Assembly (NCBI GenBank): GCA_004298155.1
Contig: SCRD01000012.1
Span: 372,001 to 436,000 of the forward strand
DNA: 64,000 nucleotides
From: Acidobacteriota bacterium
GTDB lineage: Bacteria > Acidobacteriota > Terriglobia > UBA7540
Direction of reading: 5' to 3'
Each line of letters opens with the position of its first letter. Positions within the stretch are counted from its first letter, which is position 1. Of the stretch, positions 2,072 to 27,448 are shown piece after piece. Both the position numbers and the translations under genes were made by a program. The notes beneath the pieces were generated by a model that saw nothing but the letters and a program-made list of their open reading frames with translations, was not told where the DNA came from and did no database searches.

Positions 2072-3745
2072 CTAGCCCGTAGACTGATTGCCCTCCTCGA
2101 TCAGTTGGCCGGCGGGGGTTGCAGCCTCAACGACCGCTGACTGTCGCTCCCCACGATAGGCCAGCGCGGCTCCGATAAACGCTTTGAACAATGGATGCGG
2201 TTCCAGTGGGCGTGATTTGAACTCCGGGTGAAACTGGCAGCCAAGGAACCAGGGATGGTCGCGAATTTCGACGATTTCCACGTAGGTACCATCCGGCGTT
2301 TCTCCGGTTATTTCCAACCCGTTGGCCACCAACGTAGCCTCATATTCACGATTGAACTCATAGCGGTGCCGGTGGCGTTCAGAAATTTCAACCTGGCCGT
2401 AGGCTTCCTGGGCGAAGGAGCCGGGTTTCAGGCGGGCCGTCCAGGCGCCCAGCCGCATGGTGCCGCCAAGCTCGTCAATGCCGCGCAGCTCGCGCAGCTT
2501 GTAGATCACCCGGTGCGGCGTGGAGGGGTCAAACTCAGAGCTATCCGCCCCCTGCAGCCCGCATACATTTCGCGCATATTCGATCACCGCGCACTGCATT
2601 CCGAGACAGATCCCCAGGAAAGGCACTTTTCGCGTGCGAGCATAAGTAATGCCGCGCAGCATGCCCGGAATGCCCCGCTTGCCAAAGCCGCCCGGCACCA
2701 GCACGCCGTCGAATCCATCAAGCTGCCGTTCCCAGTCTTCGCCCTCAAGGCCTTCGGCCTCAAGCCAAACTACATTGGTGAGCACATTGTTAGCCAAGCC
2801 ACCGTGCACGAGCGCTTCATTCAGACTCTTGTAGGATTCCTGGTATTCAACGTATTTGCCCACAATCGCAATAGAAACCTCATCATGAAGGCCTCGCAGC
2901 CGTTCCACAAGTTCGGTCCAGGGTTTCAAGTTGCACTCGCCAGGATCCAAACCCCAGCACTTCACGATCTGCGTGTCCAGACCTTCGCCGGCCAGCACCA
3001 GCGGGACTTCGTAAATATTTCCTACATCCTTTGCCGTGATCACCGAGTCTTTCTGGACACTGCAGAAAAGTGCAATCTTCGATTTGATATCCGAGGGCAG
3101 AAAGCGGTCCGTGCGGCAAAGCAGGATATCCGGCTGGATACCGATTTCCCTCAAATCCTTCACTGAGTGCTGTGTCGGTTTAGTTTTTAGTTCGCCGGAA
3201 GCATTGATGAAAGGAACCAGTGTAACGTGAACAAAGACCACGTTTTCACGCCCCTGTTCCTGCCGCATCTGGCGAATGGCTTCGAGGAATGGCAGCGATT
3301 CAATGTCACCCACCGTGCCGCCAACTTCCACAATAGCCACGTCTACGTCCGAGCCGACCTTCCGAATGACTGCCTTGATTTCATCGGTGACATGTGGAAT
3401 CACCTGCACGGTCTTTCCAAGATAATCGCCGCGCCGTTCCTTGGTAATGATGGTTTCGTAAATTCGTCCTGCCGTGCAGTTGTTTTCGCGCCGCATGCGG
3501 GCATGGGTAAAGCGTTCGTAGTGGCCCAGGTCCAGGTCAGTTTCTGCGCCATCATCGGTAACATAAACCTCACCATGTTGAAAAGGGCTCATGGTCCCTG
3601 GGTCAACGTTCAGGTAGGGATCAAACTTGAGAAGGTTAACCTTCAGCCCTCGTGCCTCCAGCAGGCACCCGATCGAAGCCGCGGCAAGCCCCTTGCCCAG
3701 TGAGCTTACAACCCCCCCGGTCACAAATATATACTTGGCGCTCAT
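2072..3745 (-). CDS. pyrG: CTP synthase
   Basis: Makes CTP from UTP, ATP and glutamine; last step of de novo pyrimidine nucleotide synthesis, and CTP is also needed to activate KDO. The 557-residue length is typical. The N-terminal synthetase domain starts with [16 protein letters not shown] and carries the P-loop and GGTVGDIES. The C-terminal class I glutamine amidotransferase domain has the oxyanion segment VPGGFGKRG, the nucleophile elbow FLGICLGMQ (catalytic Cys) and the His-Glu pair in QFHPEF. It is the first gene of a pyrG-kdsA pair and has a sigma70-type promoter about 110 bases upstream. Confidence 0.97.
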
Positions 3746-3860
3746 GATTCTCCTTTTAGGTATCGGCTGAAATGCACGGAATACTTAATGCCCGGACGAC
3801 GGAACCCAATCTTTTCAGTTCGAACGCATTCTCGTTGACGGGTAGGACAGTGTACTGCCT

Positions 3861-3890
3861 ATTATCAGTTCAGCGAGAGAAGGTTGTCAA
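3861..3890 (-). promoter_or_regulatory. Sigma70-type promoter of pyrG-kdsA
   Basis: On the minus strand TTGACA (3890-3885), an 18-base spacer and GATAAT (3866-3861, 5/6 to TATAAT) lie about 115 bases before the pyrG start. No other gene intervenes. Predicted by pattern only. Confidence 0.6.
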
Positions 3891-3963
3891 CGGCAAAACA
3901 AGGCCGTGGCGGGCGCAATTTGAGCGCATCTCTGCCGTACGGGTGAGTCCGTCACAAAGGTTG

Positions 3964-3972
3964 TGCTAGAAT
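3964..3972 (+). promoter_or_regulatory. Possible extended -10 element before the VWA genes
   Basis: TGC-TAGAAT forms an extended -10 (TGn plus a 5/6 hexamer) about 75 bases upstream of the first VWA gene. No good -35 is present, as is usual for extended -10 promoters. Weak support. Confidence 0.3.
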
Positions 3973-4048
3973 TGAGTCAGGTCATGCCGAGTCTTCAGAG
4001 GAGCAACCGGAGGGGCTAAGCCGGCTGCGACCAAAGGAAGGTGCCTGG

Positions 4049-5068
4049 ATGCTGGGACACATCACTGGGCGCGCATTCCGTATAGGTTTGGGTCCGTGTC
4101 TGGTTTTTTTGGCCCTCGCGGGCTTGCCGTTGCTCTGCCTTGCGTCGGGCGATAAATCAGCAGACCAACCCGATACAAAAAATCAGGTGCCGGATGTTGA
4201 AGTCCGTCGACCTCCTATCAATACGACGCCCATCCAGATGAACGTTGACAGGGTGATCGTTCCAGTGACCGTGACGGACCCTTTCGATCGAATTGTCACA
4301 GGCCTTGGCCAGGACAATTTTGAAATCTTTGATGACAAGGTTGAGCAAAAGATTTTGACGTTTGCCACGGAAGATGCACCCATCTCCGTTGGCATGGTGT
4401 TTGATACGAGCGGTTCGATGTCTGACAAGATCCAGAAGTCCAAGGAGGCAGCCCTCGAGTTCTTTAAGACATCTAACCCCGAAGACGTGTTTATGCTGAT
4501 CAGTTTCAGCAACCGTCCGTATATGGTGTCTTCGTTCACGGACAATTATGAAAACATTCTCGATAGAATGCTTTTTGTAAAGGCTGGAGGCAGGACTTCT
4601 CTGCTCGACGCGATTTACCTCGGCTTGAGCCGAATGAAAAAAACGGATACTAGTCGGAAGGCGCTGCTGGTGATTTCTGACGGTGGAGACAATCACAGCA
4701 GATATACTGAAAGAGACATCAAGCGCGCCGTCAAGGAGGCGGATGTCCAGATTTATGCTATCGGAATTTTTGAGCCACTGGCTGACCGCGATCGAACGCC
4801 GGAAGAGGCCGCAGGCCCTTCATTACTCTCCGAATTGGCCAACATTTCAGGCGGAAGGATGTTTTCAGTTGAAGACCCCAGCGAACTGCCGGATATCGCA
4901 GAAAAAATCTCAATTCAATTGCGGAACCAATACGTCATTGGATACAAGCCCTCGAATCTTGTGCGGGACGGACACTGGCGGCGGATCAAAGTCAAGCTTA
5001 ATCCGCCACGCGGACTACCACCCTTGCAAGTTTATGCCCGGACTGGATATTATGCCCCAACTCAATAG
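4049..5068 (+). CDS. Secreted VWA-domain protein (acidobacterial VWFA-related type), copy 1
   Basis: The 339-residue product begins with a signal peptide (hydrophobic GPCLVFLALAGLPLLCLAS) and then carries one von Willebrand factor A domain. The metal-ion-dependent adhesion site is intact: DTSGSMSDK gives the DxSxS triad, with a Thr in GGRTSLLDA and an Asp in ISDGGDN. A beta-rich region after the signal (FDRIVTGLGQDNFEIFDD) and a C-terminal RTGYYAP tail match the VWFA-related proteins that are abundant in Acidobacteria. The role is unknown, probably protein binding in the periplasm. AAGGAAGG precedes the ATG. The stop overlaps the start of the next, homologous gene by 17 bases, so they form a tandem duplicated, translationally coupled pair. 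Confidence 0.88.
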   Translation: MLGHITGRAFRIGLGPCLVFLALAGLPLLCLASGDKSADQPDTKNQVPDVEVRRPPINTTPIQMNVDRVIVPVTVTDPFDRIVTGLGQDNFEIFDDKVEQKILTFATEDAPISVGMVFDTSGSMSDKIQKSKEAALEFFKTSNPEDVFMLISFSNRPYMVSSFTDNYENILDRMLFVKAGGRTSLLDAIYLGLSRMKKTDTSRKALLVISDGGDNHSRYTERDIKRAVKEADVQIYAIGIFEPLADRDRTPEEAAGPSLLSELANISGGRMFSVEDPSELPDIAEKISIQLRNQYVIGYKPSNLVRDGHWRRIKVKLNPPRGLPPLQVYARTGYYAPTQ

Positions 5069-6104
5069 GAGATCACCCTCGCTTTTGCTACCCTTCAGAC
5101 AGGTTTTATTTACCGGCCTTGCCTCCCTCCTTTTCTGCACAGCACTGCTGGCGCAGGACCCTGCAGCCCCTAAGACGCCACCTCCCACTCCCCAGAAGAA
5201 CGACCAGTACAAGATCAATGTCAACGTGAACCTGGTGGTCCTTCACGCGACGGTGGTTGATAAGCAGGGGCGCATGGTCGAAAACCTCGCCGAAAAGGAC
5301 TTCCGCGTGCTCGAGGACGGCGCCCAGCAGAAGTTGTCGGTCTTCAGCCATGCCGACATTCCCGTGACCATGGGAATTGACATCGATGACAGCGGCAGCA
5401 TGCGCGACAAACGGGCGGCCGTGAATGAGGCGGCGGTCACCTTCGTAAAAACCTCCAACCCGGATGATCAGGTTTTTGTGGTGAATTTCAATGACGAATA
5501 CTACCTGGACACACCCGGGAATTTTGCCAGCAATATGGAGGAACTGAAAGGCGCTCTGGCCAAAATTGATTCCCGTGGCGGCACGGCGCTCTATGACGCG
5601 GTTTCCGCATCGATCGACCACCTGAAACTTGGCAACCGCGACAAGAAGGCTATCCTGATCATTTCTGACGGCGAAGACAACGCCAGCCGCTATTCCTTCC
5701 CGGACCTGCTGCGGCAGGCCCAGCAGTCAAACGCCGTGATCTACTGCATTGGACTGCTTGGCGAGGAACATCCCGGAGGGCTGTTCAAGATCCACGGCGG
5801 CGGCGACAAGCGGGCTGAAAAAGTGCTAACACAACTGGCCGAGGCCACAGGCGGGAAAGCATATTTCCCCAGGTCCCTCGACCAGGTTGAGCCTATCTGC
5901 GTCAGTATCGCACGCGACATTCGCAACCAATACACGCTTGGCTACTACCCGACAAATGCAAAAAAAGACGGCTCATTCCGAAGGGTTGAGATCGAGCTCA
6001 CCGACCATCGCGACATCAAGCGCTACACTGTGAGAACGCGTCCTGGATACTATGCGCCGAAAGGCGAGGGATCAGAGGCCGTTGCAGCCAGCCGCCAGGA
6101 ATAA
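5052..6104 (+). CDS. Secreted VWA-domain protein (acidobacterial VWFA-related type), copy 2
   Basis: A 350-residue paralogue of the preceding gene with the same plan: basic N-terminus, hydrophobic signal (VLFTGLASLLFCTALLAQ), Pro-rich stretch (PAAPKTPPPTPQK), beta region (VVDKQGRMVENLAEKDFRV), VWA domain and RPGYYAP tail. The adhesion-site motif is DDSGSMRDK, followed by GGTALYDA and ISDGEDN, so metal binding is probably kept. The frame is open far upstream inside the first gene, but the ATG at 5052 puts the signal peptide exactly at the N-terminus and is the sensible start. The overlap with gene 1 (5052-5068) implies coupled translation. Function unknown. Confidence 0.88.
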   Translation: MPQLNRRSPSLLLPFRQVLFTGLASLLFCTALLAQDPAAPKTPPPTPQKNDQYKINVNVNLVVLHATVVDKQGRMVENLAEKDFRVLEDGAQQKLSVFSHADIPVTMGIDIDDSGSMRDKRAAVNEAAVTFVKTSNPDDQVFVVNFNDEYYLDTPGNFASNMEELKGALAKIDSRGGTALYDAVSASIDHLKLGNRDKKAILIISDGEDNASRYSFPDLLRQAQQSNAVIYCIGLLGEEHPGGLFKIHGGGDKRAEKVLTQLAEATGGKAYFPRSLDQVEPICVSIARDIRNQYTLGYYPTNAKKDGSFRRVEIELTDHRDIKRYTVRTRPGYYAPKGEGSEAVAASRQE

Positions 6105-6240
6105 GCCCCTCTGTCATCAGGTCGCGAGACAGGCCTTGTCGCCAGCAAGTTGGGCTTTCCAGCTCCAATGCGCGACAGGCTCTCCAAATTGCAGGCCCTC
6201 TCTTTGCATCCTTGGCCCTTAGAAGGTACACTCCCACTTC

Positions 6241-7818
6241 ATGTCCTCTCCTCAGATCTCACCCAAAGAAACCCGCCCGCGGGAGCAACTCTTAGTCGCC
6301 GCAGTATTTGTGGTGACCGCAGGAGCTATGTGGCTGTTATGGGCCAACCGTTTCTTCCTCTCGCTTGATGAGGGCATATATCTCGCCGGCGCAGAACGTC
6401 TACTGCGTGGCCAGGTTCCCTACCGCGACTTTTTCGTGATCACAGGCCCGGGAAGCTTCTGGATACAGGCGGGGATTCTGGGCCTGCTGGGACCCACCCT
6501 TCGTAACGCCAGGCTGGCCCTGGTGTTTGACCTGGCGGTCCTCAGCGCGGCGGTTTACTGGCTGACCACTCGGCTTGCGGGGCGAAATTTTGGGTTGGTG
6601 GTGACGACTGTATTTTTTGCTCTGGAAACCCGGCCTCTTTTCCGACTATATGTAAACCATCGCTGGGACAGCAGTGCATTCGCCATCCTAGCCGTAGTTT
6701 TTGTCTTTGCCGGAACGGAAAATCCCTGTTTTCAAACTTTTCTGGCGGCAGGCATAGCAGCGGCTGCAGCAACCTGGATTACACCTTCGCTTTTGGCCTT
6801 GCTAATCCTTTTGGCGATATGGACGCTCCTGATCAAAGATCTGCGCCGCCAGACCATTCCTTACCTTGCAGGAATAATGTCCGTTTCGCTGCTTGCGGGC
6901 GGTGTGTTATTTTTCCAGGGTGCGCTTGCCGCAATGTTCCGCGACCTTCTATGGACATCCGCGAGTTATCCGGCAGCAAACCGAGTGCCGTACGGATACG
7001 GAGCCATTGACCCCGGCGGACTGCGTGCAATGTTTGCGGGTGCCGAAGGGGCGGCATTCATTGCGCGCACCACCGGCATGGTCGCTGTGTTGGCGCCGGT
7101 CGTGCTACCCGTCGCTGTCTATGTCGGGTGGATGGTCCGCCGCCTGCGGCGGAAGGAAATCGACCAGTGCGAGAAGCTGGCTGCCCTGCTGATGCTCGCC
7201 TCTTTCGGGTTCGTGATCTCAAGTTACCCGCGTTGGTCGGCAGACCAACTCCTGTTCATTGTCCCAGTTTTCTATGTTCTGGCAGCCTATCTGCTCGGCC
7301 AGGCCCTCACAGGCAGAATTGTCAGGGTCGCCTCCGGGGCCATGGTGCTCGGGCTGGCCGCTGCCGCGCTCAGTTATTCTGTGCTCCGGGTAACGTCAGA
7401 GCCTGTGATCGAAACACACGTTGGTGTTGTCCGTGCTGGTGCCTCTGAGCAGTCTATCATCAGGCTTGCTGGCGCAAGAATCAAACCCGGTGACACCCTG
7501 TTTGTCTACCCCTACTTGCCCATCGTTTACTTTCTGACCGGCACCGAGAACCCTACCCCGTATTCGTTTCTGCAGCCTGGCATGATGCAACCCGCCGACT
7601 ACAATAAGGCGCTCTCCTCCTTACGTGCTCATCCCCCCAAATGGGGCCTCTATTTCGCATTTCCCCTGGAAACCTATCACGGCATTTGGCCCGCGGCGGA
7701 CCCCCGCGGGCTCAACCTGACCCCGGTTGACCACTTTATCCTTTCCAACTATCACCCGGTCGGCATCCTGCAGGGGGCCGGGATGCACTTTTTCCTGCTC
7801 GAACAGGGCTCTAGCTGA
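6241..7818 (+). CDS. Polytopic GT-C (PMT/ArnT-like, GT39-related) glycosyltransferase
   Basis: A 525-residue membrane protein with about ten hydrophobic helices. After the first helix the loop SLDEGIYLAGAERLLRGQ carries the Asp-Glu pair that GT-C enzymes use for metal or catalysis, followed by VPYRDFF and ITGPG, typical of the ArnT/PMT-like superfamily. The soluble C-terminal segment (IRLAGARIKPGDTLFVYPY) resembles the periplasmic part of these enzymes. They transfer sugars from polyprenyl-phosphate donors to lipids or proteins outside the cytoplasmic membrane; donor and acceptor here are unknown. The gene stands alone between the VWA pair and the convergent DUF2911 gene. Confidence 0.8.
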   Translation: MSSPQISPKETRPREQLLVAAVFVVTAGAMWLLWANRFFLSLDEGIYLAGAERLLRGQVPYRDFFVITGPGSFWIQAGILGLLGPTLRNARLALVFDLAVLSAAVYWLTTRLAGRNFGLVVTTVFFALETRPLFRLYVNHRWDSSAFAILAVVFVFAGTENPCFQTFLAAGIAAAAATWITPSLLALLILLAIWTLLIKDLRRQTIPYLAGIMSVSLLAGGVLFFQGALAAMFRDLLWTSASYPAANRVPYGYGAIDPGGLRAMFAGAEGAAFIARTTGMVAVLAPVVLPVAVYVGWMVRRLRRKEIDQCEKLAALLMLASFGFVISSYPRWSADQLLFIVPVFYVLAAYLLGQALTGRIVRVASGAMVLGLAAAALSYSVLRVTSEPVIETHVGVVRAGASEQSIIRLAGARIKPGDTLFVYPYLPIVYFLTGTENPTPYSFLQPGMMQPADYNKALSSLRAHPPKWGLYFAFPLETYHGIWPAADPRGLNLTPVDHFILSNYHPVGILQGAGMHFFLLEQGSS

Positions 7819-17131: not shown

Positions 17132-17210
17132 AAAAGTGACTCCCACCCGATTAATTCATATTCATCCAGCTAGGCCGTTTATTTCGCTACGAGACGAGGT
17201 AAAATGCTTT

Positions 17211-17226
17211 AGTGACGGACATCACT
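17211..17226. promoter_or_regulatory. CRP-type palindromic operator upstream of the hydrogenase operon
   Basis: AGTGA-CGGACA-TCACT is a perfect dyad with the half-sites and six-base spacing of a CRP-family operator (TGTGA-N6-TCACA). It lies about 80 bases before the likely TTG start of the beta-subunit gene. A weak -10 (TACTAT, 17264-17269) sits downstream at a distance compatible with activation. Binding protein unknown. Confidence 0.55.
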
Positions 17227-17300
17227 GCAAGATCAGGGGCTGCGAGCAAGACTGGAATGTGAGTACTATTAGCCTGACCAACTCTCCTGAGGTGGGCCCA

Positions 17301-18467
17301 TTGAGCGAAACGCTCCCCGAGCACAAGTTCGTCTTTGAGCGCCAGGGCTTACAGAAGCTTTTTGACGTGTTGGCCGGTAAGGGCTACCAGATCATCGGCC
17401 CAACTCTCATCGAAGGCGCTATCGTCTACGACGAAATCAGGTCCGTGGAGGACCTGCCGGCAGGCTGGACCGACGTCCAGGATGCTGCTTCCTACCGCCT
17501 GGAGAAACGGGACGACGAGGCACTGTTCGGCTACAACGTGGGACCCCATTCCTGGAAGAAGTTCCTCTTTCCGCCACGGACGCGGTTGTGGCAGGCAGAA
17601 CGCAAAGAAGGGTCGGCCCAGGTCATCGATGAACCCATCGAAAACCGCAAACTGGCGTTCGTTGGGGTGCGCTCTTGCGAGCTGCACGCCATCGCCGTTC
17701 AGGACCGCGTTTTCATTCAGCCCGGCTTCGTCAACGCGCCTTACCAGGCACGCCGAAACCAGATCTTTACTGTCGCAGTAAATTGCGGTCAAGCCGGCGG
17801 TACCTGCTTTTGTGTTTCCATGAACGCCGGCCCCAGAGTCACCACGGGCTTTGACCTCGCCCTGACTGAGATCATTGAACCGGGACGGCACTATTTCGTG
17901 GCCGAAGCTGGAAGCGAAGCCGGCCTTGCCGTCATCCAGCAGGTACCGCACGTCGAGGCCGGCCCGGAGCAGATCGCGGCGGCTGAAGGGGCCGTTGCTA
18001 AGGCAGCCGGGCAGATGGGCCGGCAGATGGATACGTTCGGCATCAAAGACCTTCTTTATCGCAATTACAGAAATCCCCGCTGGGACGATGTGGCGTCCCG
18101 CTGCCTCGCCTGCGCCAACTGCACCATGGTGTGCCCTACCTGCTTTTGCTCTACGGTCGAAGACGTCACCAGCCTGAAGGGGGACCACGCGGAGCGCTGG
18201 CAGAGGTGGGATTCCTGCTTTACCCTGGATTTCTCTTATATCCACGGAGGCAGCGTCCGTACCAGCACGCGTGCCCGCTATCGCCAGTGGATGACCCATA
18301 AGCTCGCCACCTGGTTTGATCAATTTGGGACTTCGGGCTGCGTCGGCTGCGGCCGCTGCATCACCTGGTGTCCCGCGGCCATTGACATCACAGAAGAAGT
18401 CCGCGCCATTCGGCAATCGGAACAGAGAAACGCAGCACCGACGGAGGGCCAACATGGAGACACTTAG
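17301..18467 (+). CDS. hydB: Group 3b [NiFe] hydrogenase (sulfhydrogenase) beta subunit, 4Fe-4S protein
   Basis: Electron-transfer subunit that links the hydrogenase module to the flavin subunit. About 388 residues, with two C-terminal ferredoxin-type cysteine clusters: [14 protein letters not shown] starting near residue 268 and [12 protein letters not shown] near residue 347. The N-terminal part has the family segment [14 protein letters not shown] and [11 protein letters not shown] chose the TTG at 17301 because GAGGTGG sits five bases upstream and the domain begins right after it; a GTG at 17259 is the alternative and would add 14 residues. First gene of the operon; its end overlaps the next start by 14 bases. 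The order beta-(CNB)-gamma-delta-alpha is that of soluble NADP-coupled group 3b enzymes. Confidence 0.9.
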
Positions 18468-18915
18468 ACCTATTCTGGCCGAACACCCTTTTTTCAAGGA
18501 CCTTGAGGAACGCCATCTCGACCTGGTTGCCGGGTGCGCCTCCAACGTGCGTTTCAAAGCCGGCGACTTCATCTTCCGCCATGGCGAGGAGGCGAATGAG
18601 TTCTACCTCATTCGGGAGGGCCTCGTCGCGATTGAGATGTTTGTGACAGGCCGGGGTGCCGTAAACGTGCAGACGATTGGCGAGGGCCAGATCCTGGGAT
18701 GGTCCTGGCTGGTCCCCCCCTATCGCTGGATGTTCGACGCTCATGCGTTGGAAACGACCCGTGCCATTGCACTTGACGGCATCTGCCTTCGCAACAAGTC
18801 CGAGCAGGACCACGACCTGGGATATCAGCTCCTGAAGCGGTTCGCGACGATCGTACAGAAAGACCTCGACGCCGCCCGGCTTCAAATCCTTAATATTTAT
18901 GAAGTCCATGCCTGA
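18454..18915 (+). CDS. Stand-alone cyclic-nucleotide-binding-domain protein in the hydrogenase operon
   Basis: A 153-residue protein consisting almost only of a CRP-like beta-roll: start [21 protein letters not shown], then [23 protein letters not shown] and a binding-cassette-like region [17 protein letters not shown]. The C-terminal helix ([17 protein letters not shown]) is the dimer-helix equivalent, after which the protein ends, so the DNA-binding winged helix of CRP/FNR is missing. It may bind a ligand and act on the hydrogenase directly, or be a partner of a regulator. GGAGG precedes the ATG; both ends overlap the neighbouring genes, showing it is a fixed member of the operon. The binding cassette departs from the cAMP consensus, so the ligand is uncertain. 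Confidence 0.85.
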
Positions 18916-19762
18916 CACCATGATCGAAGCCGCAAAGCCCGACGCCATGACGCCGGTTTTCTGCCGCGTTCTCAAAACGCATCAGGAGACTCGGGACACG
19001 TTCACGATTGATTTGGAGCCCCCTTCCGGGCCACAAGTCCTTCCTTTTGCTCCCGGGCAGTTCAATATGCTCTACGTGTTTGGCGTGGGCGAGGTCCCCA
19101 TTTCCGTCAGCGGAGATCCGCGTCGCACCCACACCCTGGTCCACACCGTCCGTGAAGTCGGCGCCGTCACACAGGCCATGCGCCGCCTCAAACGGGGAGA
19201 AGTGTTGGGAGTCCGCGGGCCGTTCGGCAGTTCCTGGCCGGTGGAGCAGGCCGTCGGAAAGGACGTTGTGATCGTCGCGGGCGGCATTGGCCTCGCGCCA
19301 CTTCGGCCTGCCATCTACTCCATCCTCGCTCACCGCCAGGAATACGGCCGCGTGGTCCTGCTGTACGGCACCCGGACCCCGGAGGACATCCTCTTTCGAA
19401 AAGAACTGGAGCGCTGGCGCGCCCGCCTGGACCTCAGCGTCCACGTTACGGTGGACCGCGCGCTGGCATCCTGGCGCGGTTCAGTGGGCGTTGTAACCAC
19501 CATCATTCCACGGGCGCACTTCGACTCCAACAACGCGCTGGCCATGATCTGCGGCCCGGAAGCCATGATGAGCTTCACGGTTCTGGAGCTTGAGAACCGC
19601 GGCGTCGGCCTGGAGCATATTTATGTCTCCACCGAGCGCAATATGAAATGCGCGATCGGATTCTGCGGGCATTGCCAGCTCGGCCCTAAATTTATCTGCA
19701 AGGATGGCCCAGTCTTCCCCTATGACAGGATCCGGCAGTTCTTCGAAATCCGGGAGATCTGA
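18899..19762 (+). CDS. hydG: Group 3b [NiFe] hydrogenase gamma subunit (FAD/NAD(P)-binding)
   Basis: Flavoprotein that exchanges electrons with NAD(P)H. The 287-residue product has a ferredoxin-reductase-type FAD domain ([23 protein letters not shown]), an NAD(P)-binding domain beginning [15 protein letters not shown] with [11 protein letters not shown] and CGPEAMM, and a C-terminal iron-sulfur motif [12 protein letters not shown] plus a fourth Cys in FICKDGP, as in dihydroorotate dehydrogenase electron-transfer subunits. The start at 18899 overlaps the preceding gene by 17 bases; ATGs at 18908 and 18920 are alternatives. The stop is followed after one base by the small-subunit start. Confidence 0.93.
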
Positions 19763-19763
19763 G

Positions 19764-20543
19764 ATGGCGCAACGCGCAAAACCGAAACTGGCGGTCTGGA
19801 AATTCTCCTCCTGTGACGGATGCCAGTTGTCACTTCTCGACTGCGAAGATGAACTGCTGGAGGTAGCGGGTGAATTGGACATCGCGAACTTTCCTGAAGC
19901 CTCCCGCGCCGTTGTGAAGGGGCCTTATGACCTCTCGCTGGTGGAAGGATCCATTACGACTCCGCATGACGCCGAGCGAATCCACCAGGTGAGACGCGCA
20001 TCAAAATTCCTGGTGACCATCGGAGCTTGCGCCACGGCGGGCGGCATCCAGGCCCTCAGAAACTTCTCCGACATCAGGAAATTCACTTCGATTGTTTACG
20101 CAACGCCGGAATATATTGAGACGCTCAGCAAATCCACGGCCATCAGCGAACACATCCCGGTGGATTTTGAGCTGCGCGGCTGCCCCATCAACAAACGCCA
20201 GCTTCTTGAAGTCATCAGCGCCTTTCTGAACCAGCGCAAACCGAATACGCCCGCGCACAGCGTCTGCATCGAGTGCAAACTGCGCGGGACCGTTTGCGTG
20301 ATGGTGGCCCACGGCACGCCATGCCTGGGACCGGTGACCCACGCCGGGTGCGGCGCCATCTGCCCAGCCTACGAACGCGGCTGTTACGGGTGTTTTGGGC
20401 CCATGGAATCTCCGAATACGAAATCGCTGAGCACCCAATGGGTCCGCCTGGGCGCAAGGGAGAGCGACCTTGTGCACGCCTTCCGGGGGTTCAACGCCTA
20501 CGCCGACCCCTTCCGCAAGGAAAGCGAGGCCCATGAAAAGTAG
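19764..20543 (+). CDS. hydD: Group 3b [NiFe] hydrogenase delta (small) subunit
   Basis: Carries the iron-sulfur chain from the active site. The 259-residue protein starts with a lysine-rich stretch and [12 protein letters not shown], the proximal-cluster CxxC of the 20-kDa NuoB/hydrogenase small-subunit family, followed by IGACATAGG and RGCPI. The C-terminal part has further cysteines ([35 protein letters not shown]) for more 4Fe-4S clusters. There is no TAT signal, consistent with a cytoplasmic group 3 enzyme. The start is one base after the gamma-subunit stop; the end overlaps the large-subunit start by 11 bases. Confidence 0.94.
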
Positions 20544-21822
20544 AACCATCAAGGTGGACTACCTGGCACGCGTGGAGGGTGAAGGCGCGCTGCTCGTCAA
20601 AATCAAAGGCAACACACTGGCTGATGTCAAGCTGAAGATTTTCGAGCCACCCCGCTTTTTTGAGGCCTTCCTTCGCGGCCGTCGATACAGTGAAGCGCCC
20701 GACATCACGGCCCGCATCTGCGGCATCTGCCCGATTGCCTATCAGATGAGCGCCGTGCACGCCATGGAAGATGCCTTTGATGTGCAGGTCCAGGGGCCTC
20801 TTCGCGAATTGCGCCGCTTGCTTTATTGCGGAGAATGGATTGAAAGCCACACCCTGCACGTCTACATGCTCCATGCGCCGGATTTTCTGGGCTTCCAGGA
20901 TGCCATCCAATTAGCGCGGGAACACCCGGCTGTTGTCCAGCGCGGCCTCAAGCTGAAGAAAAGCGGAAACGAAATCGTCACGCTGCTGGGCGGCCGGGAA
21001 ATCCATCCCGTCAACGTGCGCGTCGGCGGTTTCTATCGTGTCCCAACTCGAAAGGAATTGGAACCGCTGCTTGAACAGATGAAGTGGGCGCGTGATGCAG
21101 CACTGGAAACGGTGCGGTGGTCTGCCCAATTGCCTTTCCCGGAATTTGAACAGGATTACACGTTCGTTTCTCTGCGCCACCCGGACGAGTACCCTTTCAA
21201 CGAGGGACGGCTGGTCTCCAACCGCGGGCTGGATATTTCCGTCCACGATTACGACGATTATTTCACCGAAGAGCAGGTGGCGCACTCAAACGCGCTGCAC
21301 TCCGTGCTGAAGCCTGGCACACCTTACTTTGTGGGGCCGCTGGCGCGGTACAGCCTGAACTTTGACCGCCTCTCACCTGTGGCGCAGGAAGCCGCCCGCA
21401 GCGCCGGCCTCGGGAGCGAGTGCCGCAATCCGTTCAAGAGCATCATTGTCCGCAGCGTTGAAATTCTCCAGGCCTGCGATGAGGCCATACGAATCATCGA
21501 AGGCTACCAGCGCCCGGACAGGCCGGATGTGCCTATCCAACCCGGCGCCGCGCGCGGCTATGCCTGCACGGAGGCTCCCCGCGGAACGCTCTACCATCGC
21601 TATCGCATCGATGAAAGCGGGACCATCCGCGAGGCGAAAATCGTTCCGCCCACCTCGCAGAACCAGAAAACCATCGAGCAAGACCTCCGTCACTTTGTTG
21701 CCGGGCATCTGGATGACAGCCAGGATGAGCTTCGCTGGCGCTGCGAGCAGGCCATTCGCAATTACGATCCCTGCATCTCCTGCGCAACCCACTTCCTCAA
21801 GCTCGACATCGAGCGCGAATGA
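20533..21822 (+). CDS. hydA: Group 3b [NiFe] hydrogenase alpha (large, catalytic) subunit
   Basis: Contains the NiFe(CN)2CO active site that oxidises or evolves H2. The 429-residue protein has the start motif [12 protein letters not shown], the N-terminal nickel ligands in [11 protein letters not shown] (Cys63 and Cys66), and the C-terminal ligands in DPCISCATH (Cys414 and Cys417). The nine residues after His420 (FLKLDIERE) are the expected peptide removed by the maturation endopeptidase encoded next. All four nickel-binding cysteines are present, so it should be active. Related group 3b enzymes couple H2 to NADP and some also reduce sulfur; which applies here is inference. The downstream gene starts at the stop codon (ATGA). 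Confidence 0.95.
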
Positions 21823-21833
21823 GGGAGCGTGCA

Positions 21834-22328
21834 ATGGGACCCATCCGGGCACCGCGGCTGCTGGCCATCGGAATCGGAAATATCTATCGCAGCGACGACG
21901 CCGCGGGAGTGATTGCAGCACGCCGGCTGCGACAGGCGGGCATTGACCCTTCCCTTGTGGTAGAGCATTCCGGCGAGGGCGCATCCTTGATGGAAGTCTG
22001 GAAAGGCGCGGATGCCGTCATCCTGATTGACGCCGTCAGTTCCGGGCGCCCGCCAGGAGAAGTCCTCAGGCTGGAGCCGATCAACACTCCGCTGCCCACG
22101 CAGATGTTTCAAAGTTCGAGCCATGCCTTCAGTATTCCGCATGCCATTGAAATGGCGCGGGCGCTTGGCCAGCTCCCTGCCCGCCTGATTGTATTCGGGA
22201 TTGAAGGAAGTAATTTCCATGCCGGCACTGAGTTGTCACGGGAAGTCAGCGCCGCTATGCCCGGCCTTGTGCAGTCGGTAATCAAAGAGATAAATCGTCT
22301 GCAGTTCGCGAGCGGAGAAGGAGAATAA
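21834..22328 (+). CDS. Hydrogenase maturation endopeptidase (HybD/HyaD/HycI family)
   Basis: Removes the C-terminal peptide of the large subunit after nickel insertion. The 164-residue product has LLAIGIGNIYRSDDAAGV (Glu replaced by Ser-Asp-Asp around the first nickel ligand), then EHSGEGASLMEVWKGADAVILIDAV (aspartate ligand), and FGIEGSNFHAGTELS. The usual histidine appears as SHAFSIPHAIEMA. ATG 21834 has a GAGGGAG six bases upstream; an ATG at 21819 that overlaps the hydA stop (ATGA) is the alternative and gives five more residues. Confidence 0.88.
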   Translation: MGPIRAPRLLAIGIGNIYRSDDAAGVIAARRLRQAGIDPSLVVEHSGEGASLMEVWKGADAVILIDAVSSGRPPGEVLRLEPINTPLPTQMFQSSSHAFSIPHAIEMARALGQLPARLIVFGIEGSNFHAGTELSREVSAAMPGLVQSVIKEINRLQFASGEGE

Positions 22329-22333
22329 CCTCC

Positions 22334-22597
22334 ATGCACGAGGCATCACTGATGAAGGACCTGATGCGCAAAATTGAGGGAGTTGCGCGCGAACAGAACG
22401 CCAGCCGCGTGCTCGGAATCAGCGTCCGGCTGGGAGCGCTCTCGCACATGTCAGCCAGTCATTTTCGCGAGCACTTTGCGGTGGCTTCGCGCGGGAGCGT
22501 TGCCGAGGGCGCCCGCCTGCGCATCGAGGTCCTTTCGGACATGAATGACCCGCACGCTCTGGAGATTTTGCTCGAAAACGTGGAAATTGCGGAATGA
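22334..22597 (+). CDS. hypA: Short HypA-like protein lacking the zinc domain
   Basis: HypA delivers nickel to hydrogenase, binding Ni through the N-terminal Met-His-Glu. Here the start MHEASLMKDLMRKIEGVA keeps that motif, and the alpha/beta fold continues through RVLGISVRLGALSHMSASHFREHF. However, the protein is only 87 residues against about 113 usually. The two CxxC pairs of the zinc ribbon are absent: after RIEVLSDMNDPHA it goes straight to the final strand EILLENVEIAE. It therefore looks like HypA with the zinc loop deleted, not a simple 3' truncation. It is last in the structural operon and converges on hypE 21 bases away. Confidence 0.85.
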   Translation: MHEASLMKDLMRKIEGVAREQNASRVLGISVRLGALSHMSASHFREHFAVASRGSVAEGARLRIEVLSDMNDPHALEILLENVEIAE

Positions 22598-22618: not shown

Positions 22619-23686
22619 TCAGCAGATGCGCGGCAGCGGCTCGCCCAGCATCACGTCAAGCACGCGGGTCCCGCCGATTTCAGTTTTCAGCAGCACCCGC
22701 CGAGGGTGCGCGGCGACCACCTGGCCTATGCAGCAGGAGTGGCGGCCCAGTGGGTGGCTGCGCATGCGCTCCAGCACGGCATCGGCAACCTCAGGGGCTA
22801 CCACCGCCACCAGTTTACCCTCGTTTGCAACGTAGAGCGGATCGAGTCCAAGGATTTCACACGCTCCCTTCACGCTTTCACGGACCGGAACGCTGCGCCC
22901 CTCCAGTTCCATGCCCACCTGCGAACGGGCGGCAATCTCATTCAGTATGGTTGCGACGCCGCCCCGGGTGGGATCACGCAGGCAATGGATCTGCTCACTC
23001 GTATCCAGCATGCCCGCCACCAGCGTGTGCAGCGCTGCCGTATCACTCTCAATGGGCCCTTCGAATTCCAGCCCTTCGCGCCGCGACATGATGGCCATGC
23101 CATGGTCGCCGATAGTCCCGCTGAGAAGAACTCGATCGCCCGGCCGCGCCTGGTCGGCGGAGATCTTCACCGGCCGCTCCAGGACCCCCAGGCCCGTTGT
23201 GGTGATGAAGACCTGGTCACCTTTACCCCGGTCCACCACTTTGGTGTCACCCGTGACCAGCAGGACGCCCGCTTCCTCTGCCGCCTGCCGCATAGATTGC
23301 ACCACCCGAGCCAGGTCTTCGGAGACCAATCCTTCCTCCAGAATAAATGCCGCCGCAATAAATCGAGGCGTAGCCCCGCTCATGGCAAGATCGTTCACTG
23401 TGCCGTTGATAGCAAGGTGGCCGATGTCGCCGCCGGGAAAAAAGATTGGAGTGACGACAAACGAATCCGTCGTGAAAGCCAGCCGCGACCCGTTCACTTC
23501 CAGCACCGCCTGGTCGTCGAGCCGGTCCAGATAATCGTTGCTGAAGTTCGCCAGGAACAGTTTTTCCACGAGGTCCTGGGTGAGCTTTCCGCCGCTCCCG
23601 TGCCCCAGCACAATCTGCTTATGGCCAAGGACTGGAACTGGACACGCCTCACCCGGCATCATGCGGGACCTGTTTTCACTCGCCAA
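22619..23686 (-). CDS. hypE: Hydrogenase maturation protein HypE
   Basis: Makes the thiocyanate on its own C-terminal cysteine that becomes the cyanide ligand of the active-site iron. The 355-residue PurM-like ATPase has LGHGSGGKLTQDLV, FVVTPIFFPGGDIG, GTVNDLAMSG and RDPTRGGVAT, and ends in PLPRIC with the essential terminal Cys. The start is a TTG at 23686 with GGGAGG seven bases upstream; it begins three bases after hypD stops. Last gene of hypF-hypC-hypD-hypE. Confidence 0.96.
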   Translation of the reverse strand: MASENRSRMMPGEACPVPVLGHKQIVLGHGSGGKLTQDLVEKLFLANFSNDYLDRLDDQAVLEVNGSRLAFTTDSFVVTPIFFPGGDIGHLAINGTVNDLAMSGATPRFIAAAFILEEGLVSEDLARVVQSMRQAAEEAGVLLVTGDTKVVDRGKGDQVFITTTGLGVLERPVKISADQARPGDRVLLSGTIGDHGMAIMSRREGLEFEGPIESDTAALHTLVAGMLDTSEQIHCLRDPTRGGVATILNEIAARSQVGMELEGRSVPVRESVKGACEILGLDPLYVANEGKLVAVVAPEVADAVLERMRSHPLGRHSCCIGQVVAAHPRRVLLKTEIGGTRVLDVMLGEPLPRIC

Positions 23687-23689
23687 CAG

Positions 23690-24796
23690 CTAGCCTCCCA
23701 CAGTGGTCTTCTGGCGCCGCCCGTAAAGATAATAGGCCGCGCAGGCGCCTTCCGATGAAACCATCGTGGCCCCCAGCGGATGCTCGGGCGTACAATCATT
23801 GCCGAAGGCAGGGCAATCGTGCGGCTTCCTGACGCCTCGCAACACCTCACCGCTGATGCACACAGAAGGCTCCTGCGTGTCGATGGCGGCCACATCAAAG
23901 CGCCGTTCGGCGTCAAAGCCGCTGAACTCCTCCCGCAAACGGTAGCCGCTGTTCGGGATCGGGCCCACGCCCCGCCACTTCCGCTCACCCACCTCGAACA
24001 CTTTTGCAACAAGTTCCTGCGCGGCCTGGTTCCCTTCCCGCGTTACGGCGCGAACGTACTGATTTTCAACCCGCGCCTGGCCTTCTTCGAGCTGCCTTAT
24101 TGTCATCAGTACGCCTTCCAGCAAGTCGACCGGCTCAAAGCCCGTGATGACGATCGGCACTTTATACCGCGCGCTGATCTCCTCGTATTCGCGGTAGCCC
24201 ATGATGGCGCAAACGTGTCCCGGCCCCAGGAAACCCTGCACGCGGTTCCAGGGAGAATCCAGGATCGCCTCGATGGCCGGCGGCACCAGCACGTGCGAAA
24301 CCAGCACTGAAACGTTCCTGATTCCCTCCTGTTTTGCGCGCCACACCAGCATGGCGTTGGCGGGGGCCGTCGTCTCAAACCCGATGGCGAAAAAGACCAC
24401 TTGCTTTTCGGGATGTTTGCGTGCGAGTTTCAGGCAGTCAAGCGGCGAGTAAACCACGCGGACGTCCGCGCCACGCGACTTCACCGTAAGCAGGTCGCAC
24501 TCGGAGCCTGGGACGCGCAGCATGTCGCCGAACGAACAGAAGATAACGTCCCGCCTCGCGGCAATGGCATGCGCCTTGTCAATCAACTCGAGCGGCGTAA
24601 CGCACACGGGGCAGCCCGGTCCGTGCACCAGTTCAATATCCCTGGGAAGAAGATCGTCAACCCCATACTTCACAATGGAGTGTGTCTGCCCGCCGCAGAC
24701 CTCCATCAGCACCCAGGGCCGCCGCTGGACTTGCTGGATTTCCTTGAGCAGCCGCCGGGCCAGGTCTGCGTCGCGGTATTCGTCCAGGTATTTCAT
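23690..24796 (-). CDS. hypD: Hydrogenase maturation protein HypD
   Basis: The iron-sulfur scaffold where the Fe(CN)2CO unit is built with HypC. About 368 residues from the ATG at 24796, close to the family length. Motifs: [59 protein letters not shown], and the C-terminal cysteine set CISGEVLRG...[21 protein letters not shown]. The ATG at 24796 has GAAGAAG upstream; the frame extends to 24916 but that lies inside hypC. It follows hypC with a gap of 25 bases. Confidence 0.96.
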
Positions 24797-24821
24797 CGCT
24801 TCTTCTTCACTCCTATGGCCG

Positions 24822-25121
24822 CTATCCGTCAGGCTTGCTTCCAGCCGAATCGTTCCCGCCAGGCTCCACGTCAACGTCTGCCTGATCAAGCTCCGCAAGC
24901 TGCCCCATTTCCTCAAGAAGCTGATATGTCCGGGCAGCTTCCTGCTCGTCCACGCGGCTGATGGCGAAGCCGGCGTGAACTATCACATAGTCACCCTCTG
25001 CAACTTCAGGGACGTATTCCAGGCAGGCATCGCGGACAATCCCACCGAACCGGACTTTGCCCATGCGCAACCCCCCGGCGTTTTCCAGCAAAACGACCTG
25101 TCCCGGAATTCCCAGGCACAT
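24822..25121 (-). CDS. hypC: Hydrogenase maturation chaperone HypC
   Basis: Carries the iron cofactor from HypD to the large subunit. The 99-residue protein begins [10 protein letters not shown] with the essential Cys2, then [27 protein letters not shown], the OB-fold core of the HypC/HupF family. It has an acidic C-terminal tail ([11 protein letters not shown]) somewhat longer than average. AGGGAGG precedes the ATG, which starts two bases after the hypF stop, so translation is coupled. Confidence 0.96.
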
Positions 25122-25123
25122 CC

Positions 25124-27448
25124 TCAGCCTCCCTTTGTCGCCACAGCGTTGGCAATCGCCGCCTGCCCCAGCGCAATCCCGCCGTCGTTCGGCGGAACCT
25201 TTGCGTGCAGGTACACCTCAAACCCGAATTTGCCCAGACCGGAAAGCGTTCGATCCAACAGCAGCATGTTCTGAAATGTTCCCCCGCTCAGGCACACCTT
25301 GTTCAGCCTTTCCTGCTCGCGCAACTGCCGGCACACCTGTGTGATCATTTCGGCCAGCGAGTTGTGGAAGCGCCCCGCAATCACTCCGGGAGGCGTCTCG
25401 TCCTCAACCTCGTTTACAATCGATTCTATCACCGGGCGCAGATCAATCTGCCAGGGATCGCAATATTCCACCTGGAAAGGATACACGCCTCCGGCCGCTT
25501 CCTGCGCGGCCATTTCCAGTGCGATGGCAGCCTGCCCTTCAAAGTTGACTTCATACCGCAAACCCAGAATAGAGGCCACGGCATCAAATAGCCGCCCGCA
25601 TGAAGAAGTGGCGACCGTATTGATTCCCTGCTCCAGCATTTTCCAGATCAGCCGGCGCTCATTATCGGGAACGCCATTCCACATCGGCAAAAACGCCGGC
25701 GCTTCTTTGCCGTAGGTTTCCCGCAGGTAGCTCAAGCCAGACCGCCACGGATGGCGAATGGCGGCATCTCCACCGGCGAGCGGAATGTAGCGCAAATGCG
25801 CGCGGCGCTCGAACTTTCGAAAGTCGGCCACCAGGAATTCCCCACCCCAGATCTGTCCGTCGGTCCCGTAACCAGTCCCGTCAAACGCCACACCAATCAC
25901 CTTTTCATCCAGGCCGTTTTCCGCCATGCAACTGGCGATATGCGCATGATGGTGCTGCACTCCAATTTTTTCAATCTCGTCCTGCTCCATGGCGTACTGA
26001 GTGCTCAAATAGTGCGGGTGAAGATCATAAGCGATGATGCGTGGACCAATGCGGAACAGATTCTTCAGGTTTGCGAGTGTTTCCTCGAAAAACACGAGGG
26101 TCTCGTAATTCTCCAGATCGCCGATGTGCTGGCTGAGAATGGCGTGCTGCCCATGAGTGAGGCAGAAAGTGTTTTTCAATTCCGGGCCGCAGGCCAGAAT
26201 ATCGGCTACCGGCCGGCCGAGGTCGATCACCGCAGGCACATACCCTCTCGACCGCCGCAACACTCGTTCCTTTCCTCTGAAAACGCGCACCACGGAATCA
26301 TCCACTCTCATGTGGATGCGCCGGTTGTGCAGGAGCAACGCATCGGCTACATGCCCAAGCTGTGAAAGCGCGTCTCCGTTTGAGATAACGATAGGTTCCT
26401 CGGCCAGGTTGCCGCTGGTCATTACCAGTGCCGTAAAAGCCGGGGGACATTTCGCGTTGTCGCCAAACAGCATCCAATGCAGCGGCGTGTAGGGAAGCAT
26501 TACGCCCAGCGTTCTGTTATCCGGAGAGACGGCAGGTGAAAGGAGCGCATCCTGACGCCGATCGAGGATCACTATGGGATGGCGGGGTCCGAGGAGCGCA
26601 TCACGGTCTTCTTTCGTGACGTGGCAGAGTCTCTCGACGGATGAAAGGTTGGCCACCATCAAGGCAAACGGTTTGTCACTGCGCCGCTTGCGCGCGCGCA
26701 GCCGTTCCACCGCCTGATGGTTTTCGGCATCACAGGCCAGGTGGAACCCTCCCAGCCCTTTGATGGCGATAATCTTCCCGGCTTTCAGCAACCGCCGGAC
26801 TTCACGGATGGCATCGAGGTCCCCGGCTGGTCCACCGCTCTCTGGGCGGGGGATGTCCATCTCGGCCCCGCTCGAATCAACCAGGGAGAGCCGGGGCCCG
26901 CACACCGGGCAGGCATTGGGCTGGGCATGGAACCTGCGGTCGCCGGGATCGTCATATTCAGACTGGCACTCCGCGCACATTCGGAACTCGTGCATGGTCG
27001 TCGCCGGACGGTCATAAGGAACGCCTTGAATAATGCTGTAACGAGGTCCGCAATGGGTGCAATTGGTGAAGGCGTAACCGAAGCGCCGGTCGCTGGGATC
27101 GGAAAACTCACTCCGGCAATCATCGCAGGTCGCAACGTCAGGAGAAACAAGCACGGTGCCAAAGTCCTGCTCGATGCTCTCCTGGATAACAAACTCTGTT
27201 TCACCCATCGGCCGGAGGTCATTGGCGGCAACTTGCGCTATTTCAGCCAGCGGCGGTGGGCTTTGGGTGAGGTCTTCCACGAAATTGGAAATCGCCGCGC
27301 CCGGTCCTTCTACTTCGATCAGAACACCATCGGGAGTGTTGCAAACAAAACCCGCCAGGCGGAAGCGGCGGGCCAGCCGGAAAACGTGGGGACGAAAACC
27401 AACCCCTTGCACAATCCCGCGGATATGGAATTGCTTTCGAATCGTCAA
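25124..27448 (-). CDS. hypF: Carbamoyltransferase HypF
   Basis: Uses carbamoyl phosphate and ATP to carbamoylate HypE, supplying the cyanide ligands. The 774-residue protein has the full domain set: N-terminal acylphosphatase (RGIVQGVGFRPHVFRLA), two zinc-finger pairs (CDDCRSEF, CTHCGPRY, CAECQSEY, CPVCGPRL), the YrdC-like domain (IIAIKGLGGFHLACDAENH) and the Kae1-like domain with HHHAHIAS and GVAFDGTGYGTDG. Start appears to be TTG at 27448. It lies 49 bases downstream of the alpha-mannosidase gene on the same strand, probably without functional connection. Confidence 0.96.
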   Translation of the reverse strand: MTIRKQFHIRGIVQGVGFRPHVFRLARRFRLAGFVCNTPDGVLIEVEGPGAAISNFVEDLTQSPPPLAEIAQVAANDLRPMGETEFVIQESIEQDFGTVLVSPDVATCDDCRSEFSDPSDRRFGYAFTNCTHCGPRYSIIQGVPYDRPATTMHEFRMCAECQSEYDDPGDRRFHAQPNACPVCGPRLSLVDSSGAEMDIPRPESGGPAGDLDAIREVRRLLKAGKIIAIKGLGGFHLACDAENHQAVERLRARKRRSDKPFALMVANLSSVERLCHVTKEDRDALLGPRHPIVILDRRQDALLSPAVSPDNRTLGVMLPYTPLHWMLFGDNAKCPPAFTALVMTSGNLAEEPIVISNGDALSQLGHVADALLLHNRRIHMRVDDSVVRVFRGKERVLRRSRGYVPAVIDLGRPVADILACGPELKNTFCLTHGQHAILSQHIGDLENYETLVFFEETLANLKNLFRIGPRIIAYDLHPHYLSTQYAMEQDEIEKIGVQHHHAHIASCMAENGLDEKVIGVAFDGTGYGTDGQIWGGEFLVADFRKFERRAHLRYIPLAGGDAAIRHPWRSGLSYLRETYGKEAPAFLPMWNGVPDNERRLIWKMLEQGINTVATSSCGRLFDAVASILGLRYEVNFEGQAAIALEMAAQEAAGGVYPFQVEYCDPWQIDLRPVIESIVNEVEDETPPGVIAGRFHNSLAEMITQVCRQLREQERLNKVCLSGGTFQNMLLLDRTLSGLGKFGFEVYLHAKVPPNDGGIALGQAAIANAVATKGG

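Follow-up and report, generated by a model that had tools for sequence, protein, structure and literature searches.

The canonical HypA/HybF proteins of E. coli and H. pylori share with the 87-residue HypA described here the MHE site and an alpha-beta nickel domain; unlike it, they possess two CxxC pairs and have the GTPase HypB as a partner. In the literature, nickel insertion is said to require NTPases of the HypB type, and importance for hydrogenase activity is ascribed to the zinc site of HypA (PMC12134894, PMC3287977, PMC5557546). According to PMC5557546, changes to the zinc-site cysteines of H. pylori HypA lower hydrogenase activity.

The best PDB sequence match to the short protein is HypA of T. 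kodakarensis (PDB 3a43, 5aun, 5yxy, 5yy0), which resembles it in nickel-domain fold, in the MHE start and in having HyhL as its partner. It differs in possessing a zinc ribbon, His98 and an ATP-using HypB (PMC7055735), and the alignment reveals no counterpart in it of the His38/His43/His47 motif discussed below. Once T. kodakarensis HypA is bound to HypB, its His98 relocates to the MHE and a nanomolar, square-planar nickel site results; the residue is reported to play this part only in the presence of both HypB and ATP. Where HypA is bound to HyhL, the N-terminal tail of HyhL meets the HypA nickel site (both in PMC7055735).

A hypB-less arrangement has been described in Nitrosococcus oceani AFC132, whose hypAFCDE cluster resembles the present one in maturation gene order, and Luminiphilus syltensis is listed among the other carriers (PMC7285500). 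That paper proposes UreG as a substitute, for which our UreG counts give no general support, and the portion of it that was available mentions neither loss of the ribbon nor new histidines. The operon of Nitrospina gracilis is credited with six accessory genes (PMC3578206). Among the open-access matches listed (titles and abstract beginnings, most subscription papers lying outside this set), none dealt with zinc-ribbon loss in HypA or with the histidine motif. Thus the lack of HypB has been noted before, but none of these matches, as far as their available text goes, links it to a HypA that has lost the ribbon and gained histidines.

The hypA gene and its neighbourhood

The window is the whole stretch of 64,000 nucleotides that was analysed, from contig SCRD01000012.1 of an Acidobacteriota bacterium. 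The following features were identified in it.

17200-18467, + strand: hyhB, 4Fe-4S (beta) subunit; from synteny and homologues annotated as 4Fe-4S dicluster protein, start approximate
18454-18915, + strand: cyclic-nucleotide-binding-domain protein; from synteny and homologue annotation, start by eye
18899-19762, + strand: hyhG, FAD/NAD(P)-binding (gamma) subunit; from homologues annotated as FAD/NAD(P)-binding protein and synteny
19764-20543, + strand: hyhS, small subunit (delta); from profile matches (Pfam, NCBIfam), start by eye
20533-21822, + strand: hyhL, group 3b-like NiFe large subunit; start by eye, C-terminal end of 18 residues recorded
21834-22328, + strand: hydrogenase maturation protease; HycI 50.5 bits and TIGR00072 112.6 bits for the ORF from 21819, start by eye
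22334-22597, + strand: short hypA, 87-residue HypA without zinc ribbon; ATG start, TGA stop
22334-22342, + strand: MHE nickel-binding start (Met1, His2, Glu3), invariant in the alignment of 26 short sequences
22445-22474, + strand: His38-x4-His43-x3-His47 motif, in the loop before helix 2 and the first turns of that helix
22538-22558, + strand: DMNDPHA linker, residues 69-75, standing in place of the zinc ribbon
22619-23686, - strand: hypE; TIGR02124 472.7 bits
23690-24796, - strand: hypD; TIGR00075 511.9 bits, start by eye
24822-25121, - strand: hypC; PF01455 90.1 bits
25124-27448, - strand: hypF; TIGR00143 796.2 bits

The order on the + strand is hyhB, the cyclic-nucleotide-domain gene, hyhG, hyhS, hyhL, protease and hypA, with the protease directly behind hyhL and a gap of 5 bases between its stop and hypA. 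The hypFCDE block (22619-27448) lies on the - strand and converges on hypA, inverted relative to most other cassettes. The hydrogenase was assigned to group 3b (Hyh/sulfhydrogenase) from the four-subunit hyhBGSL set and from a large subunit nearest to the ShyA and HydA models; the best NCBIfam matches of HyhL, sulfhyd_ShyA (273.5 bits) and HydA (246.6 bits), are both below the strict cut-offs of 700 and 880. HyhL retains the C-terminal DPCISCATH sequence followed by a tail, and the cassette includes the protease gene; nickel would therefore still be expected to enter before the tail is cleaved (PMC12134894). The cyclic-nucleotide-binding-domain gene (18454-18915) between hyhB and hyhG is a usual cassette member across phyla, absent in one locus (L026), and it also adjoins the hydrogenase genes of most full-HypA relatives.

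The product of hypA is recognisable as HypA/HybF by its MHE motif, by the sequence and fold of its nickel domain and by the neighbouring NiFe hydrogenase and hyp genes. It contains no cysteine, and so lacks the two CxxC pairs of the zinc ribbon. The Pfam HypA profile (PF01155; 49.6 bits, cut-off 28.9) matches residues 1-66 only, corresponding to profile positions 1-66 of 112, and the match to TIGR00100 (49.8 bits) is under the cut-off of 88.1. Invariant residues in the alignment of 26 short sequences are Met1, His2, Glu3, Leu10, Gly34, His38, His47, Ala60 and Ala75; within the linker Asp69 is nearly invariant and Ala75 invariant, and column 67, Ser in at least 90% of the sequences, is Leu in the window protein. 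The roles of Met1, His2 and Glu3 in nickel binding are described in PMC5557546 and PMC7055735. A sequence-only reading of this DNA had recognised an 87-residue HypA at 22334-22597 (+) that has lost the ribbon and kept the MHE and the final strand, and our coordinates, frame, length and structural model agree with it; the three conserved histidines, the conservation of the linker and the absence of HypB had escaped it. It had also proposed to look for a full-length hypA elsewhere. Searches of the window genome (5.21 Mb, 97.6% complete) detected no second HypA, the next match scoring 13.2 bits, and one NiFe large subunit.

Predicted fold and loss of the zinc ribbon

An AlphaFold2 model of the window HypA, built from 26 sequences (mean pLDDT 94.3, pTM 0.83), predicts a helix at residues 2-20, a strand at 25-33, a second helix at 41-52 and strands at 61-66 and 78-86. 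Between 86 and 87 of its residues can be superposed on solved HypA chains that cover residues 1-135, the best being 5aun_A (Z 13.1, rmsd 2.1), followed by 5yxy_D (Z 12.8) and H. pylori 6g81 (Z 12.3 over 87 residues). T. kodakarensis HypA gave Z 12.6-13.1 in five entries and the domain-swapped 3a44 gave Z 9.6 over 70 residues; the best non-HypA chain has a RidA-type fold (Z 8.2). Profile-profile comparison with hhalign of the short HypA and 16 full HypAs yielded a probability of 98.7 over 66 columns. Since the model matches the nickel domain of the solved HypA structures in full, the ribbon is missing while the last strand is kept; that is, the nickel domain is predicted to be complete, with the zinc ribbon, which in other HypAs is inserted between strands 2 and 3, cleanly excised.

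Distribution of the short form and organization of the cassette

Thirty-three short HypA proteins of 86-104 residues from several phyla, including that of the window, were compared. The deletion whose recurrence the earlier reading had proposed to check is present throughout this conserved clade. A contig scan gave 19 relatives, of which 18 have an intact reading frame (86-95 residues) and one, L034, is interrupted by two stops; the host record titles name Alphaproteobacteria, other Proteobacteria and one MAG each of Verrucomicrobia, Candidatus Hydrogenedentota, Planctomycetota and Simkania, and the decayed L034 lies in a MAG titled Chlamydia trachomatis. Among named carriers are Thalassobaculum fulvum KCTC 42651, Luminiphilus syltensis NOR5-1B (L020 is from the same species) and Parvibaculum sedimenti HXT-9, and the gene is also found on four plasmids of Burkholderiaceae.

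The alignment of 26 short sequences (86-95 residues, separate assemblies) was made without L034, because of its stops, and L028, a near-copy of L027. The full-HypA rows used for comparison were picked by their two-CxxC pattern, so that their cysteines are conserved by construction; 18 such ORFs were found in 27 scanned loci and 16 were used, L059 and L063 being dropped as near-copies. In a tree of the N-terminal domain, 30 short rows including the window are split from 19 others with support of 99/93, and the four plasmid copies form one branch inside the short clade (99/84); the tree has only 68 columns, which makes its inner order untrustworthy, and excludes L143-L145. The short form is a minority among the sampled genomes: it occurs in 2 of 297 genomes of the window's own phylum (window genome included), in 7 of 385 of the class of Thalassobaculum, where 20 have a full HypA, and in 4 of 140 of the family of Luminiphilus, where 12 do, the centre genome being counted among the 7 and the 4.

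The cassette order hyhB-cNMP-hyhG-hyhS-hyhL-protease-hypA-hypF-hypC-hypD-hypE is complete in 11 of the 19 contig loci (L017, L020, L021, L022, L024, L025, L027, L028, L029, L030 and L031). In L023, hypD and hypE lie upstream. Contig ends truncate L018, L026 and L032, and it is L026 that has no cNMP gene; hypF alone follows hypA in L016 and L019; L033 has hypA alone, and L034 is decayed. Five further loci have the whole order (L074, L075, L076, L078 and L079, the last a second cassette of genome G012), as does L071, where the hypF match is partial; L073 and L077 are truncated. The order is conserved across phyla, and the cassette, which is portable and appears to be horizontally mobile, also occurs on plasmids. 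Two loci depart from it in other ways: in L025 about 4.2 kb (3194-7436) separate hyhG and hyhS, which are adjacent in other cassettes, and in L034 (6910-7164) the cassette is decaying, with stops inside hypA, partial matches to hyhB and hypF, and no large subunit.

Absence of HypB

The clade of ribbon-less HypA proteins of about 87 residues with His38, His43 and His47 occurs where HypB does not. No HypB over cut-off was found in the window genome (best TIGR00073 match 28.4 bits, against 121.2). HypB exceeded the cut-off in none of 28 genomes with the short HypA only, in 62 of 65 with a full HypA and in both of the genomes that have the two kinds. Of the three HypB searches behind these totals, the first gave 0/17 short-only and 2/2 with both, the second 0/9 short-only and 39/41 full, and the third 0/4 short-only and 23/24 full; G002 and G005 are counted once across searches in the total of 28. 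The full-HypA genomes tested comprise 33 of 131 in the phylum sample, which were hand-chosen (13 of the same class, the rest from the list or for a close HyhL), 20 of 20 in the sample of the Thalassobaculum class and 12 of 12 in that of the Luminiphilus family. Searching 32 short-HypA regions by tblastn revealed no hypB in any, and two control regions with hypB gave one each.

Fisher's test of HypB against HypA kind gave 2e-8 for 41 full and nine short-only genomes, which share an inherited cassette. HypB absence largely reflects this one inheritance, so the 28 short-only genomes do not amount to 28 independent events.

Three full-HypA genomes had no HypB over the cut-off: G042, whose HypA is near a contig start, G151, in which a piece of HypB is cut by a contig end, and G663. 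The last has a full HypA and a match of UreG strength only (70.5 bits), and on present evidence does break the pattern; it may be a separate instance of HypB absence in which the zinc ribbon is intact. Another genome, G305, was scored as full and also holds a separate ribbon-less HypA (L072, see below). G070 (99% complete, 8.4 Mb) was placed in neither group; it has a hyhBGSL-protease cluster (L115) whose HyhL is 68% identical, and no match to HypA at E <= 1e-4 or to HypB at E <= 1e-5. It may have a different maturation route or an assembly gap.

The histidine motif

His38 is present in 29, His43 in 31 and His47 in all of the 33 short HypAs, and each is absent from all 16 full-length ones. His47 alone is invariant, so a three-histidine site is not essential everywhere. 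In the model, helix 41-52 carries both His43 and His47, at a spacing of four residues, and the preceding loop holds His38; in the alignment, His38 is two columns from the residue that matches Asp40 of H. pylori HypA, which PMC5557546 places among the likely nickel ligands.

All four plasmid copies have position 38 replaced, by Q, P, V or G. On pMSMB0266 of Burkholderia savannae the cluster is annotated whole and carries Val38, so His38 is dispensable for persistence of the gene set there. The large subunit of plasmid pPF72-1 is a fragment. On pPV15 of Pandoraea vervacti (L128, 7211-8490), the large-subunit gene lies in two pieces in different frames, is missing from the gene table and looks broken; hypA and hypFCDE are in the table.

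A further ribbon-less HypA, the L072 protein of G305 (contig C4, about 122904-123167, - strand), resembles the short clade in its 87 residues from the MHE start and in having the ribbon cut out, and it comes from the window's own phylum. Unlike the clade, it groups with full HypAs in the tree, on a long branch, is without the histidine motif and is directly followed by hypB. Its region gave no match to any of the 11 cassette genes, and elsewhere G305 carries a full HypA and another HypB.

Proposed nickel delivery without HypB

On balance we favour the view that the short HypA is the nickel chaperone of a self-contained, mobile group 3b cassette which matures its enzyme without HypB, the nickel site being completed in the small domain. 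With the MHE retained and neither a counterpart of His98 nor a HypB to shift it, the most economical interpretation is that one or more absent ligands are provided by the new histidines on the same domain. The site would consist of the N-terminal amine, His2 and perhaps Glu3, completed within the domain by at least one new histidine. Holding nickel in such a ready-made site, the short HypA would need no remodelling by an NTPase; like T. kodakarensis HypA, it would bind apo-HyhL at its N-terminal tail, and it would hand nickel over to the large subunit, already loaded with Fe(CN)2CO, with no NTP being hydrolysed, whereupon the cassette protease would cleave the C-terminal tail of HyhL. More tentatively, and at somewhat less than even chances, this may be a natural NTP-independent route in which a built-in His/MHE site replaces the zinc ribbon and HypB together and has been swapped onto large subunits about 70% identical.

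In favour of the chaperone role we count the single HypA, the lack of HypB and the one NiFe large subunit of the window genome; the HypB counts by HypA kind; the single clade, its gain of histidines, its purifying selection (see below) and its gene order; the gaps in UreG; superposition of the model on HypA of the HyhL-HypA and HypAB-Ni complexes; and the position of His38 beside Asp40. Against it stand the replacement of His38 in the four plasmid copies, the lack of His43 in two of 33 proteins, the exception G663 and the shared inheritance behind the absence of HypB. The literature consulted yielded no report of hydrogenase activity in a cassette carrier.

The main rival is that a host NTPase outside the cassette, such as UreG, an Mrp-type ATPase or a COG0523 GTPase, replaces HypB and that the short HypA has been reshaped for this partner, which we consider unlikely but the most serious of the alternatives. 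Certain ATP-hydrolysing HypB homologues of archaea are of the Mrp type. The existence of archaeal HypB homologues that hydrolyse ATP (PMC12134894) favours this rival, as does the proposal of UreG for N. oceani AFC132 (PMC7285500), and UreG is over cut-off in 12 of 25 short-only genomes (the later-found carriers G718, G719 and G722 not being in this count). It is absent from the other 13, the window genome among them, and as a general substitute for HypB it was rejected on that ground. When non-cassette ORFs of at least 60 residues from 20 short-HypA regions, that of the window included, were compared all-against-all, a single family reached three regions and no family exceeded that number, so the cassette is not accompanied by a substitute for HypB; a cassette that crosses phyla would, moreover, need a fitting partner in each host.

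It is also conceivable, though rather improbable, that nickel is loaded with little help, free nickel being enough and the short HypA a mere docking or folding aid for apo-HyhL. Added nickel is reported to rescue hypA or hypB mutants in part (PMC3287977), and the copy on plasmid pOLGA1 of Paraburkholderia phytofirmans (L127, 9001-9315; 104 residues) starts with MRE rather than MHE. This copy is the only one of 33 without His2, Met1, His2 and Glu3 being invariant in the 26 aligned sequences; no hypFCDE was found within the 18 kb examined around it, and it is probably losing function. Nor would a docking aid account for histidines that were gained, as opposed to residues merely lost.

Relation to group 3b hydrogenases

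The large subunits nearest to the window HyhL in the sample of its own phylum are those of G151 (74% identity), G028 (71%) and G093 (71%). G093 carries the short form; in G151 a HypA with zinc ribbon is encoded upstream of hyhB; and in G028 a full hypA-hypB pair is followed by hyhB-cNMP-hyhGSL-protease-hypFCDE. A tree of large subunits places L071 (from G093) and the window among full-HypA rows (15-row set, 88/91). The short label needs five changes on this tree, or four without counting L115 and L126, but well-supported branches force only one; L115 was scored as full even though the search of its genome (G070) turned up no HypA. This pattern suggests that HypA kinds have been swapped repeatedly on large subunits. 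No HyhL position is fixed between the two kinds (rows L115, L125 and L126 left out).

The ribbon-less HypA belongs to the cassette sub-lineage and not to group 3b generally. That group 3b hydrogenases at large use it is hardly credible and was refuted here: the structural genes beside short-clade HypA were, where met, of group 3b type, but the close relatives in G151 and G028 sit with zinc-ribbon HypAs, and T. kodakarensis HyhL has been solved with its full HypA (PDB 5yxy). In agreement with group 3b not being HypB-free in general, Methylacidiphilum strains with a 3b hydrogenase are described as having a full hypABCDEF set (PMC6688271). The earlier statement that nickel delivery differs in this enzyme family is therefore to be narrowed: it very probably differs, since HypB is missing too, within the limits of the cassette sub-lineage. 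The prospect, raised by the same reading, of related operons with full HypA beside an isolated decayed copy came true in its first half (G151, G028) and proved false in its second.

dN/dS values of 0.07-0.35 in six pairs, three of them among L143-L145 (which are also in the histidine counts), point to purifying selection on short-clade hypA; a seventh pair was saturated. Together with the length of 86-95 residues kept in 26 sequences from separate assemblies, and carriage by named strains, they rule out for the clade a decayed or misassembled hypA, an explanation with next to no probability despite the two stops of L034 and damage to other genes in three of the four plasmid clusters.

Biological meaning

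With the ribbon and HypB apparently removed and all else kept, the benefit of the NTP step can be put to the test. Two genomes whose HyhL proteins are 71% identical, that of the window with a short HypA and no HypB and G028 with a full HypA and HypB, constitute a natural swap pair. A hypB-free cassette could simplify the production of NiFe hydrogenases in foreign hosts, and the pattern as a whole points to a simpler natural nickel loading of the enzyme.
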